Below are positions 1 to 3,882 of a stretch of 50,701 nt of DNA, piece after piece (the first letter of the stretch is position 1; each line of letters opens with the position of its first letter). The stretch spans positions 1-50,701 of the forward strand of contig JAQSYE010000022.1 in assembly GCA_029256305.1 (NCBI GenBank), given 5' to 3'. The notes below the pieces were generated by a model, which saw only the letters and a program-made list of their open reading frames with translations, was not told the DNA's origin and did no database searches. Made by a program: the position numbers and the translations under genes. The stretch comes from Lacrimispora sp. (GTDB taxonomy: Bacteria; Bacillota; Clostridia; Lachnospirales; Lachnospiraceae).

Positions 1-146
1 TATGAGATTAGTCTTCGATAGTTAGACATGCCACCACTCCTTTATCACTATTTTATGCAAAATGCCATTGCATCTATGACATAAAAATGATATCCTAATG
101 AAAGAATAAAATAAAAATTTTTTCCAATATATGGAGGATGATAAAA

Positions 147-881
147 ATGAAGCTCTACCGTGCAAAAGATTACTATGACATGAGCCGAAAAGCAGCCAAT
201 ATCATTTCTGCCCAGATCATTATGAAACCAAACTGCGTTCTGGGACTTGCTACCGGCTCTACCCCTGTAGGTGCCTACAAACAGCTGATTGAATGGTACC
301 ATAAAGGTGATTTGGATTTTTCCCGCGTAAAAACAGCAAACCTTGATGAATACAAGGGTCTCACCAGAGACAATGACCAGAGTTACTATCACTTTATGAA
401 ACAGAATTTATTTATGCACGTAAACATCGATGTAACCAATACCCATATTCCTGATGGAATGGAAGCTGATACCGAAAAAGAAGCTGCCAGATATGAAGAG
501 ATCCTCAAAAATCTGGGTGGTATTGACTTACAGATTCTTGGCCTTGGCCATAATGGTCACATCGGATTTAATGAACCTTCCGATGTCTTCCCAAAAGATA
601 CCCATATTGTTGACTTACAGGAAAGCACCATTGAGGCAAATAAACGCTTCTTTGCTTCTATCGACCAGGTTCCGCGCCAGGCTTATACCATGGGAATCGG
701 GACCATTATCAGAGCGAAAAAAATTCTGTTAATGGTAAGCGGAGAAGATAAGGCAGAGATTCTGCACGATGCCCTATGCGGCCCAGTGACGCCAAAAGTT
801 CCCGCATCCATTCTGCAGCTCCATCCGGATGTAATCATTGTTGCAGATGAAGCAGCACTTACCAAATGGGAAACGCTCTGA
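147..881 (+). CDS. nagB: Glucosamine-6-phosphate deaminase
   Basis: ORF 138-881; MKLYRAKDYYDMSRKAA..., LGLATGSTPVGAY, LGLGHNGHIGFNEP motifs of NagB; start refined to ATG 147. Confidence 0.96.
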   Translation: MKLYRAKDYYDMSRKAANIISAQIIMKPNCVLGLATGSTPVGAYKQLIEWYHKGDLDFSRVKTANLDEYKGLTRDNDQSYYHFMKQNLFMHVNIDVTNTHIPDGMEADTEKEAARYEEILKNLGGIDLQILGLGHNGHIGFNEPSDVFPKDTHIVDLQESTIEANKRFFASIDQVPRQAYTMGIGTIIRAKKILLMVSGEDKAEILHDALCGPVTPKVPASILQLHPDVIIVADEAALTKWETL

Positions 882-883
882 TA

Positions 884-912
884 TTGACGTGATTTACTTT
901 GAGTGATATAAT
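884..912 (+). promoter_or_regulatory. Predicted sigma-A promoter (TTGACG-N17-TATAAT)
   Basis: -35 TTGACG 884-889, 17-nt spacer, -10 TATAAT 907-912, immediately after the nagB stop. Confidence 0.8.
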
Positions 913-943
913 AAATTAAAATTTTTTAAGGAGGTGAGACGCT

Positions 944-1096
944 GTGCGACATATTTCAATTCAAGCTACTTCACTATGGACTAATATTGTTGATATTTCT
1001 GCAGTTTTCGGTAATTTTGACGCGTCCGTGTATCAGTTCGCCCATTTTTATGAAAAAGGTAGCGTCTCATCTGAGAATTATTCTGTAAGCCGGTAG
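944..1096 (+). CDS. Putative 50-aa leader peptide/smORF (MRHISIQATSLWTNIVDISAVFGNFDASVYQFAHFYEKGSVSSENYSVSR)
   Basis: GTG start 9 nt after AAGGAGG (928-934); TAG stop 1094-1096; downstream of a strong promoter; absent from the ORF track. Confidence 0.55.
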   Translation: MRHISIQATSLWTNIVDISAVFGNFDASVYQFAHFYEKGSVSSENYSVSR

Positions 1097-1128
1097 TTTT
1101 TATCACTGGTTTTTCGGTTGATTTTCCG

Positions 1129-1157
1129 CCCGGATGCTCCTGCACCGGGTTTTTTTG
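1129..1157 (+). terminator. Intrinsic terminator/attenuator between smORF and ABC exporter genes
   Basis: CCCGG-A-TGC-TCCT-GCA-CCGGG followed by a 7-T run. Confidence 0.75.
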
Positions 1158-1237: not shown

Positions 1238-2068
1238 ATGAAACAGGTAAAAACCATTCTATCCGGCTGCGGCTTTCTCTCAAAAGCCGTATGCTCCACA
1301 ATTTTGATCTGCTCGAAACAAATTTTTGACGGAGGTTTTCTCTGCATAGCCGGAGGCTACTTTGTCCAGATTGTTCAGTTCGTCCTGCTGACCTTTATCT
1401 GGAAAACCCTGGCTGAAACAAATGCTCTGCCATCAAATGTCTCTTTGAACCAGTTAATGACCTACACTCTGATGTCTGCTGTATTACATCAGGAATTAAA
1501 TATTATTTCCCCCGCCACATCGTCCTTATGGGAGGGGTCCGTCATTGGGCGCTTCTTAAGACCTATGGCTATTGAAGCCAGCTTTATATCAGAAACAATC
1601 GGTAGATTCTGGATTCCCAATTTCTTGTTTATGGGGATTCCATTGTTGCTTCTTGCGCCGTTGCTCTCTGTCAGTCCATTTCCTGATTCTTTCAGTATGG
1701 GAATTCTTTCTCTCATAAGTCTGGTGCTGGCGGTTACTATTGGATTTGCCATAGATTTACTTTTCGCTTCTCTGGCCATGAATCTGAAAAATGGGTGCTT
1801 TGCAGCTCTTGCTGTCAGGGAGGCTGTTTATTCCCTGCTTTCCGGAGAAATGATACCTTTTTCCTTATTTCCAAAAAAGCTGGGAACGCTGTTTTCCCTG
1901 CTGCCGCTTGGCTCAGTTGCCCATGGACCTTTAACGATTTACACCGGCACCGCCCATTTCCCTCTTAGCGTTCTGGCACTCCAGTTTTTCTGGGCTGTAG
2001 CTTTATGGGCCCTGACTATTTATGTATTTAATAAAAGCAAAGAAAGGATGATCTCTTTTGGCGGATAA
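1238..2068 (+). CDS. ABC-2 family transporter permease (COG4587-like)
   Basis: Six hydrophobic segments; first gene of a permease-permease-ATPase operon; SD tggagg upstream. Confidence 0.8.
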   Translation: MKQVKTILSGCGFLSKAVCSTILICSKQIFDGGFLCIAGGYFVQIVQFVLLTFIWKTLAETNALPSNVSLNQLMTYTLMSAVLHQELNIISPATSSLWEGSVIGRFLRPMAIEASFISETIGRFWIPNFLFMGIPLLLLAPLLSVSPFPDSFSMGILSLISLVLAVTIGFAIDLLFASLAMNLKNGCFAALAVREAVYSLLSGEMIPFSLFPKKLGTLFSLLPLGSVAHGPLTIYTGTAHFPLSVLALQFFWAVALWALTIYVFNKSKERMISFGG

Positions 2069-2918
2069 TTTTAAAACACTAACCAGGCTTTACAGGCAAT
2101 ATGCAAAAATGGATTTATTATGGTTTCTTAGGGATACTCGCTATTTCTTTATTCAACTAATTTCTGATGTCGTAAGCGGCGGCTGCACCATTGCAGGTAT
2201 CTGCCTGTTATCTGCAAATTTTAAGAATTTTTCCGGGATGACCCAAAATGAAATTTTATTTATGATGGGCTACGCTCTCTTTATTGACGGAATTTTTATG
2301 GTATTTTTTATTGGCAACAATACGGGCATGGTCAGCAGAATCATTGGACGGGGGCAGCTTGATCACATTATGATCCAGCCGGTTCCACTATGGGCGGAGC
2401 TTCTGGCACAGGGTTTTGCCCCTGTTTCCGGTTCTCCCATAATGATACTTGGAATAGGTCTTACTGCTTATGGTGCCGTAAGAGCTGGTATACTCATAAA
2501 TGCTTTTGCAATCTTGCTGTTTCTTTTTTACAGCACCTGTTCCATTATCATAGTGATGTCATTTATCTATCTGATTTCCTGCTCGGCGTTCTATGCTCCT
2601 GCTGCTGCAGAGGAGATTGCCGTGGTGGGAAAGGATTTATTTTCAACGTTGAAAACCTACCCTCTGGGTAATATGAAAGGGTTTCAAAAGCACATTTTTT
2701 TGTCCGTCATTCCCGTGGGCCTTTGTGCCTGGTTTCCTTCCACGCTTTTAATAAAAGCAGGAAAATACGGATTAGGTGCGGTTCTGATTCCTGAAGCTTT
2801 TTATTTGCCTGCGGCGGCCGCAATATTATCAGTTATAGCAATTATAGCATTTAAGAAAGGAATAAAACATTATGAAACCTTTGGTTCTCCAAGATACTCT
2901 GGCTTTGGCCATCGATAA
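2058..2918 (+). CDS. ABC-2 family transporter permease (COG3694-like)
   Basis: Polytopic protein overlapping the preceding gene; same operon. Confidence 0.8.
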   Translation: MADNFKTLTRLYRQYAKMDLLWFLRDTRYFFIQLISDVVSGGCTIAGICLLSANFKNFSGMTQNEILFMMGYALFIDGIFMVFFIGNNTGMVSRIIGRGQLDHIMIQPVPLWAELLAQGFAPVSGSPIMILGIGLTAYGAVRAGILINAFAILLFLFYSTCSIIIVMSFIYLISCSAFYAPAAAEEIAVVGKDLFSTLKTYPLGNMKGFQKHIFLSVIPVGLCAWFPSTLLIKAGKYGLGAVLIPEAFYLPAAAAILSVIAIIAFKKGIKHYETFGSPRYSGFGHR

Positions 2919-3882
2919 TATTACAAAAGAATACTGTCAGTGGCAGCGAAGCGGCAACGCCCGCGATATCATGAAAAATCTCCTTCACCCCGAAAAACGA
3001 GTAGTAAAAGCCCTTGACCATATTTCTCTTCAGGTAAAGAAGGGCGAATTCGTTGCTTATGCAGGCGCCAACGGAGCTGGTAAAAGCACTACAATAAAAA
3101 TTCTTTCCGGAATCCTCATGCCTACAGAAGGAACAGTCTCAGTACTTGGGGTTAATCCTGCCAAAGACCGAATATGGCTTATGCGTCATATCGGAGTCCT
3201 TTTTGGCCAGCGCACAGAATTATGGTGGGACCATCCGGTGATATCCAGTTTTGAATGGAAGAAGGAGGTATGGAACATTCCGGATTCCACCTACAAAAGA
3301 AACCTGGAGATGGTTACAGAACTTTTGGACCTTTCAGACATTTTAAAAACCTTTGCAAGGGAACTCAGCCTGGGGCAGAGAATGCGAGCGGATATTGCCA
3401 TGCTTCTTCTGCACAGCCCGGAGTTGATTTTTCTTGATGAACCCACACTTGGCCTTGATGTTCTAGCCAAGCAGCAGATGATCCGGTTTTTAAAAAAGAT
3501 CAATATTGAGAGCAAAACAACGGTGGTCGTAACCAGCCACGATATGGATGATCTGGAGGAAATGGCACAGAGAATTATTCTCATTAACAAAGGAAGAATT
3601 GCATTTGACGGTAATTTTGATGAACTTCGAAATGTGATGGGTGGTTTTTACCGGATTGTCCTTACCACAGCAAAAGAAGATGCACCACTTTCGCTTCCCG
3701 AAATGAGACTTTTAAAAACAGACAGCGGAATTCACGAGTACGAATTTGACCGGAATGCGCTGGGAATCCATAAGGTAATGGCATTGCTTTCTGATTTCCC
3801 TCAGATCCTTGACATGGAAATCAAAAAAGCTCCGATTGAAGATGTCGTGGCTAATTTATATTTGAGCTGGCGAGAAAATTAA
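2872..3882 (+). CDS. ABC transporter ATP-binding protein (COG4586-like)
   Basis: Walker A GANGAGKST, signature LSLGQRMR, Walker B LIFLDEPTLGLD; SD aagaaagga upstream of ATG 2872. Confidence 0.92.
   Translation: MKPLVLQDTLALAIDNITKEYCQWQRSGNARDIMKNLLHPEKRVVKALDHISLQVKKGEFVAYAGANGAGKSTTIKILSGILMPTEGTVSVLGVNPAKDRIWLMRHIGVLFGQRTELWWDHPVISSFEWKKEVWNIPDSTYKRNLEMVTELLDLSDILKTFARELSLGQRMRADIAMLLLHSPELIFLDEPTLGLDVLAKQQMIRFLKKINIESKTTVVVTSHDMDDLEEMAQRIILINKGRIAFDGNFDELRNVMGGFYRIVLTTAKEDAPLSLPEMRLLKTDSGIHEYEFDRNALGIHKVMALLSDFPQILDMEIKKAPIEDVVANLYLSWREN

Follow-up and report, generated by a model that had tools for sequence, protein, structure and literature searches.

Introduction

In attenuators of the Escherichia coli trp type, leader strands pair in the alternative combinations 1:2, 2:3 and 3:4. 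Here we analyse a leader in a 50,701-nucleotide contig of Lacrimispora sp. (JAQSYE010000022.1; this whole stretch is referred to as the window), located between nagB and an operon of the order permease-permease-ATPase that encodes a predicted ATP-binding cassette (ABC) exporter. Sequence comparison and fold modelling indicate that the leader is probably a ribosome-dependent transcription attenuator that controls this ABC-2-type exporter operon, with its own Shine–Dalgarno (SD) sequence serving as strand 1. The 1:2 / 2:3 / 3:4 scheme would be that of the trp-type attenuators, but the leader peptide is without a run of codons for one amino acid and an exporter operon takes the place of a biosynthetic one, which rules out an amino-acid attenuator of that type.

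Several antibiotic-responsive leaders resemble this one in part. The nearest is the Bacillus subtilis vmlR leader, in which, as here, an upstream open reading frame (uORF) lies in an anti-antiterminator, a second hairpin (SL-2) forms the apex of the antiterminator and an intrinsic terminator follows; a ribosome stalled on the uORF reportedly keeps the anti-antiterminator from forming (PMC9226507). The vmlR uORF, however, has 3 codons, its SD lies unpaired ahead of the hairpin, and the leader controls an ABCF gene whose own SD is masked (PMC9226507). The present leader ORF has 50 codons, its SD itself makes up strand 1, its stop codon is placed within the apex hairpin, and an ABC-2 exporter is the target. 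The cplR leader of Clostridioides difficile (PMC10201436) and the E. coli toiL leader (PMC12121999) are alike in that stalled ribosomes open a uORF structure; their inducers are lincomycin, retapamulin or tetracycline, and several of the effective drugs act at the start codon (PMC10201436, PMC12121999). Among the drugs effective for vmlR, cplR, vga(A) and toiL are several shown, or considered, to keep ribosomes on start codons (PMC12121999, PMC10201436). Unlike the leader studied here, cplR has an MRI tripeptide uORF, masks the cplR SD in its terminator hairpin and serves an ABCF target (PMC10201436), and toiL acts on translation and Rho-dependent termination in a toxin-antitoxin operon (PMC12121999). 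An ORF of 50 codons rather than 3 and a PF06182 exporter rather than an ABCF protein rule out a leader of the vmlR/cplR type.

The bmrB leader of the B. subtilis bmrCD exporter shares with the present one a GTG-initiated ORF of about 50 codons ahead of an ABC exporter and three alternative stem-loops, and translation of its ORF is required for drug-induced read-through (PMC4191407). Its terminator lies inside the ORF, whereas here it begins 31 nt 3′ of the stop codon, its exporter is the BmrC/BmrD heterodimer as against PF06182 permeases, and an SD-containing first strand does not figure in the description consulted. The position of the terminator outside the ORF and the PF06182 permease rule out a BmrB-type leader. 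A further parallel is offered by the B. subtilis tlrB (yxjB) leader, where NusG pausing gives time for initiation and a leader hairpin restricts each transcript to roughly one ribosome (PMC6851288); that leader differs in having 9 codons, a tylosin-specific RYR stall, no identified antiterminator and a hairpin that mainly masks the tlrB SD (PMC6851288). At the gathering score Rfam gave no match in the window or in 12 homologous loci, and nothing credible appeared at permissive thresholds, which bears out an earlier note, made from the sequence alone, that saw no named riboswitch class here. We found no published description of this leader or of COG4586/4587/3694 operons, subscription journals lying outside the search.

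The leader has the sequence features of a uORF attenuator

As far as can be judged from sequence, the leader has every testable feature of a uORF attenuator (Table 1): an SD-bearing ORF under coding selection, an intrinsic terminator between that ORF and the structural genes, an antiterminator that excludes the terminator, and an anti-antiterminator (the helix P1) that overlaps the antiterminator at 1061-1067. Constrained folding agrees on the relation of ribosome position to structure for the window and most close relatives, and is less clear for L057, L058, L094 and L098 (L numbers designate individual homologous loci). The ORF and the helices, their conservation, their covariation and their mutual exclusivity were computed here.

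The minimum-energy fold of the leader consists of P1 (13 bp, enclosing the ORF and burying the SD), the hairpin P2 and the terminator, and it was better than that of 200 of 200 dinucleotide shuffles (z -2.76). The promoter, the SD and the 50-codon GTG ORF ending in TAG that the earlier note had described can be read directly from the sequence; its terminator is likewise present as a hairpin with a 7-T run, although the stem occupies 1128-1150 and the T run 1150-1156, not 1129-1157. Across homologues, AGGAGGTGAGAC is kept at the SD, a counterpart of P2 lies over or close to the stop codon, and the terminator (hairpin and T-run) is found in 21/21 leaders. The promoter is the top promoter-like site within 700-1400, and for most homologous leaders a -35/-10 pair is located ~10-24 nt 5′ of the SD, that of L057/L093 being TTGACA-N17-TATAAT.

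Table 1 Features of the leader and its neighbourhood in the window, with predicted roles.
Feature	Position	Strand	Remarks
nagB	138-881		Upstream neighbour of leader
Leader promoter	884-912	+	Sigma-70-type, TTGACG-N17-TATAAT; 11/12 consensus matches
Leader SD	928-934	+	AAGGAGG; overlaps strand 1 of the putative switch
P1 5′ strand (strand 1)	932-944	+	SD/start region; putative anti-antiterminator; pairs with 1060-1072
Leader ORF	944-1096	+	50 codons, GTG start, TAG stop
Strand 2 of antiterminator	1057-1067	+	AGG[U]AGCGUCU; excludes P1; predicted to pair with 1132-1141 when SD blocked
P1 3′ strand	1060-1072	+	Anti-SD; codons 39-43; overlaps strand 2
P2 hairpin	1073-1126	+	Holds stop codon; would be antiterminator apex; minimum-energy fold
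Intrinsic terminator	1128-1156	+	GCCCGG.TGC, a loop, GCACCGGGT, then 7 U
Strand 3	1132-1141	+	Terminator 5′ arm and loop; predicted to pair with strand 2
ABC exporter permease 1	1238-2068	+	276 aa; leader co-occurrence 17/17 in genus
ABC exporter permease 2	2058-2918	+	PF06182 (ABC2_membrane_6)
ABC exporter ATPase	2872-3882	+	PF00005 (ABC_tran)

The SD-masking helix is rebuilt between lineages

The complementarity that the earlier note had seen between AGGTGAGACGCT (932-943) and AGCGTCTCATCT (1061-1072), 12 bp with one G-U pair, is present and is extended by the fold to the 13 bp of P1. Just 0.4% of shuffles matched the window's duplex between the SD and the 3′ part of the ORF, and in 18/21 leaders P1 stood at <=5% against dinucleotide shuffles; for L094 the segment tested in this way was truncated, and -16.6 kcal/mol is obtained with the whole of it.

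From one lineage to another P1 is rebuilt with other bases, and its SD-side and ORF-side strands change jointly: the paired strands are GTGAGAC/GTCTCAC in Lacrimispora, GAGGA/UCCUC in L043, AAGCACAUG/CAUGUGCUU in L044, GUGGUGAG/CUCACCAU in L052, GGUGGUGAGAGGU/GCCUCUUGCCAC in L057 and GGACCUUG/CAAGGUCC in L094. Two sets of eight leaders, which overlap in part, were tested by permuting SD strands against ORF segments; in both, the cognate combination had the best mean energy among 40320 permutations (p ~2e-5 to 5e-5). Covariation of 932-943 with 1061-1072, which had been envisaged from the single sequence, is thus supported between lineages, the lineages compared being few and related leaders not independent.

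A putative antiterminator shares bases with P1

The comparison also supports a predicted antiterminator that excludes P1, in which strand 2 pairs with GGAUGCUCCU in the 5′ arm of the terminator. Its counterparts in most lineages occupy the same place, directly 5′ of or overlapping the anti-SD, with different bases: GAUUGUUUUGAaUGC/GCAgUCAAAACAAUC in L053 (14 bp with one mismatch; the same in L052 with G-U changes), CAGCGUC/GACGCUG in L017, AACACCC/GGGUGUU in L094, and ~13 bp with one bulge in L057 and L098. Cognate pairing was favoured on permutation, with p=2e-5 for 16 leaders and 2e-5 and 0.004 for two sets of eight; within-leader shuffles gave a modest 0.02-0.07 in 10/21 leaders.

The earlier note had placed the antiterminator elsewhere, between CCGGT (1090-1094) and ACCGG (1144-1148). 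Both sequences exist, but a functional role for them is not supported and we reject this pairing: it is not conserved and targets the 3′ arm of the terminator, ACCGG is absent from the L017 and Hungatella terminators, and several other lineages have no counterpart of the pairing at the end of the ORF. A further stretch, 1022-1028 (GCGUCCG), can form 7 bp with the window's terminator arm and is a minor alternative strand; the fold with a covered SD uses 1057-1067, not 1022-1028.

Predicted switching on occupancy of the SD

Constrained folding was applied to a transcript cut just before the 3′ arm of the terminator (strand 4), at selected ribosome positions. For the window, mean pairing of the antiterminator was 0.06 with the SD free and 0.64 with the SD covered, and it was 0.01 when a ribosome occupied the stop codon, the bases paired in the covered-SD state being 1057-1059 and 1061-1067. 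The folding pattern is similar in L013, L016, L017, L038 and L043; in L011 and L012 a partial antiterminator already forms with a free SD.

From this behaviour we infer an order of events and a kinetic competition. With strand 1 as the SD/start region, strand 2 as the 3′ part of the ORF, strand 3 as the 5′ arm and loop of the terminator and strand 4 as its 3′ arm, an SD free of ribosomes would allow 1:2 pairing (P1), which would lock strand 2, block re-initiation on the leader and leave 3:4 to terminate transcription. A ribosome moving at normal speed would trail the polymerase to the stop codon, open P2 and vacate the SD, so that P1 would re-form behind it and termination would again follow. 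Ribosomes kept on the start codon or close to it, or queued back onto the SD by slow elongation, would instead mask strand 1, whereupon 2:3 pairing around the P2 apex would make the terminator too late and permit read-through into permease-permease-ATPase. P1 might also cap the leader at about one ribosome per transcript, as does the tlrB leader hairpin. The use of the SD as a switch strand would be a compact design for sensing initiating ribosomes. The signal is most likely a translation inhibitor that traps ribosomes on the start or early codons, a reasoned guess by analogy with vmlR, cplR and toiL.

A generic elongation-speed attenuator would make a different use of the same parts: ribosome lag anywhere on the ORF would decide the outcome, SD occupancy would be a by-product, and P1 would merely stop repeat translation of the leader. 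BmrB (53 aa) works through slowed translation with a terminator, an antiterminator and an anti-antiterminator (PMC4191407), and the spread of leader ORF lengths, 35-80 codons, would suit a role for distance and time, not for one peptide. We nevertheless consider this alternative unlikely, though deserving of weight, because in the models a mid-ORF stall keeps P1 and leaves the antiterminator off (mean 0.08 for the window at codon 33) whereas covering the SD turns it on, and because the SD region is part of P1 in 20/21 leaders.

Several observations weigh against an attenuator switched by SD occupancy. P1 is missing from L099, which has both a leader ORF and a terminator; L016, L037, L096 and L097 show a weak or unclear antiterminator; in L057, L058, L094 and L098 the antiterminator forms whatever the state of the SD (in L093 it also forms with a free SD); some fold models pair through other partners; and the permeases of L054-L056 are without such a leader. 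The cores of P1 and the antiterminator are nearly invariant within Lacrimispora, so that the evidence for covariation comes from between lineages. In most leaders the full-length transcript favours the terminator over the antiterminator, the terminator probability (pT) being mostly >0.9 even with the SD covered (clear exceptions are L043, L094 and L057); switching would therefore have to be kinetic, during transcription.

Coding and RNA constraint in the leader ORF

The leader ORF has 50-52 codons in 18/18 Lacrimispora and Hungatella leaders (52 in Hungatella), with no in-frame indels. To judge from substitution patterns, it evolves as coding sequence in codons 2-27 and as RNA in codons 28-43. 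In the first part the proportions of nonsynonymous (pN) and synonymous (pS) change are 0.28 and 0.52, giving dN/dS of 0.39 (0.44 for close pairs), while the remaining two frames give 0.88 and 1.27 over the whole ORF, confining the coding signal to the ORF frame; this is the codon conservation that the earlier note had proposed as a test of the ORF, and it fits the suggestion that the small ORF is used to sense ribosomes. In codons 28-43, pS is 0.04-0.06 and pN 0.10-0.11 (pN > pS), and with pS near zero the third codon positions are fixed at the RNA level.

Together P1 and the antiterminator account for part of codons 28-43 and leave TCCGTGTAT.AGTGCGCCCATTTTTACG over. Hardly any synonymous change is seen at 1025-1060 of the window (TCCGTGTAT.AGTGCGCCCATTTTTACGAAAA, codons 28-38), and it is explained solely where this stretch overlaps P1 or the antiterminator. 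Most of the diverged leaders have GCCC and then a U run at the same place, a possible pause signal; at the CCCATTTTTA stretch a perfect match to the NusG pause motif TTNTTT is absent from the window.

These data bear on three further alternatives. One is nascent-peptide-specific stalling by a single compound, at S-L-W-x-N (codons 10-14) or S-V-Y-x-C-A-x-F-Y (codons 28-36), with the exporter removing the compound. W12, N14, S28, A33 and F35 are invariant in a 15-row peptide alignment and an aromatic residue near codons 7-13 recurs among diverged leaders; yet pN above pS and the almost complete lack of synonymous change in codons 28-43 argue for RNA rather than peptide constraint there, and the GCCC-U5 motif of L053 is shifted by one base relative to the frame of L052. 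On balance we regard peptide-specific stalling as distinctly unlikely.

That the RNA binds a ligand and the ORF is incidental, as in a riboswitch, is very improbable. The near-zero synonymous change at TCCGTGTAT.AGTGCGCCCATTTTTACG, not fully covered by P1 or the antiterminator, could be read in this way, but the frame-specific purifying selection on codons 2-27, the absence of frame indels, the constant retention of the SD and start, the lack of an Rfam match and loop sequences that are entirely different between lineages all argue against it. In the earlier note's proposal that the small ORF or ligand binding controls read-through, the attenuator-like leader, the genuine ORF, the co-varying SD-masking helix and the exporter operon are upheld, while ligand binding by the RNA is unsupported.

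There is scarcely more than a slight chance that the product of the ORF is a functional peptide secreted through the ABC transporter, with the terminator only tuning the ratio of peptide to transporter. The fixed ORF length in Lacrimispora and the strict linkage to the exporter would suit such a peptide; against it, no signal or double-glycine leader is visible, the leader peptide has no family match (0 Pfam and 0 NCBIfam matches), and the peptides range over 35-80 aa across lineages with hardly any common residues while the RNA helices are rebuilt.

Distribution of the leader and the permease

The leader is present as a single copy in 17/25 genomes of the genus; permease 1 is found in exactly those 17, and both are absent from the other 8. 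This strict linkage, joint absence included, suggests that the exporter brings a benefit only if it can be induced. The usual gene order in the leader-bearing genomes is nagB, leader, permease, permease, ATPase, hemerythrin, HIT and DUF436, and the named relatives that come closest are Lacrimispora amygdalina, L. xylanisolvens, L. defluvii, [Clostridium] aerotolerans and Hungatella. Sampling across the family showed the leader in 7/7 genomes with a close permease, and a diverged leader built on the same plan in the 2 genomes whose permease is ~35% identical.

A wider search used a permease-1 profile to find the transporter and then read the upstream DNA without presupposing a leader. Leaders of the same plan were found in Hungatella and in other Lachnospiraceae genera, the peptide being related in two of these (L043, L044) and different in two more (L052, L053); such leaders also occur in five further families of Bacillota (L057/L093, L058, L094, L096/L097 and L098). 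The ORFs beyond the genus have 35-80 codons. The architecture conjectured from one sequence recurs in homologues. Upstream of the distant permease homologues L059-L077, no comparable leader was seen. We tentatively suggest, with rather less confidence than we have in the attenuator itself, that these leaders may constitute an undescribed, Bacillota-wide attenuator class that senses occupancy of the leader SD, in which compounds that hold ribosomes at the start or early codons would induce an ABC-2 exporter, the helices persisting in at least six families and the peptide varying freely. Were this so, a broad leader family absent from Rfam would join the antibiotic-sensing attenuators, so far known mainly from ABCF and methylase genes, and the inducers of the leader would be candidate substrates, offering a route to the function of an uncharacterised exporter.

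The distribution also bears on whether the terminator simply ends nagB, the leader ORF being a decayed remnant. The nagB gene stops at 881 and has no terminator of its own before 1128, and L020 (G007), which lacks both the leader and the ABC operon, has a similar terminator immediately after nagB. This explanation is disfavoured and retains almost no probability, given that in Hungatella nagB lies >1 kb further upstream and yet the leader and helices persist, that elsewhere the leader persists with a different gene or none directly upstream, and that the ORF is under selection.

The transporter operon and other observations

The order permease-permease-ATPase expected from the earlier note is borne out by PF06182 on the second ORF and ABC_tran on the third. 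Permease 1 alone gave no Pfam match, and a solved relative sought by sequence was not found; the likeness of the ATPase to ABCA/drrA-type domains is general only. The transporter genes overlap, permease 1 and permease 2 by ~11 nt (2058-2068) and permease 2 and the ATPase by ~47 nt (2872-2918), which suggests translational coupling. Between the end of nagB and the leader promoter (881-912) nagB has no terminator of its own, so the attenuator terminator probably also ends nagB transcripts in Lacrimispora.

At L020 1480-1532, the terminator directly after nagB is near-identical to that of the leader and is followed by the hemerythrin gene. The genome of the window also carries a second, distant permease homologue without such a leader (L077; C14:3519-4175). 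Three metagenome-assembled genomes titled 'Paenibacillaceae bacterium' (L024, L026 and L028) have Lacrimispora-type sequence, with ~90% DNA identity across the leader, and their labels look wrong.
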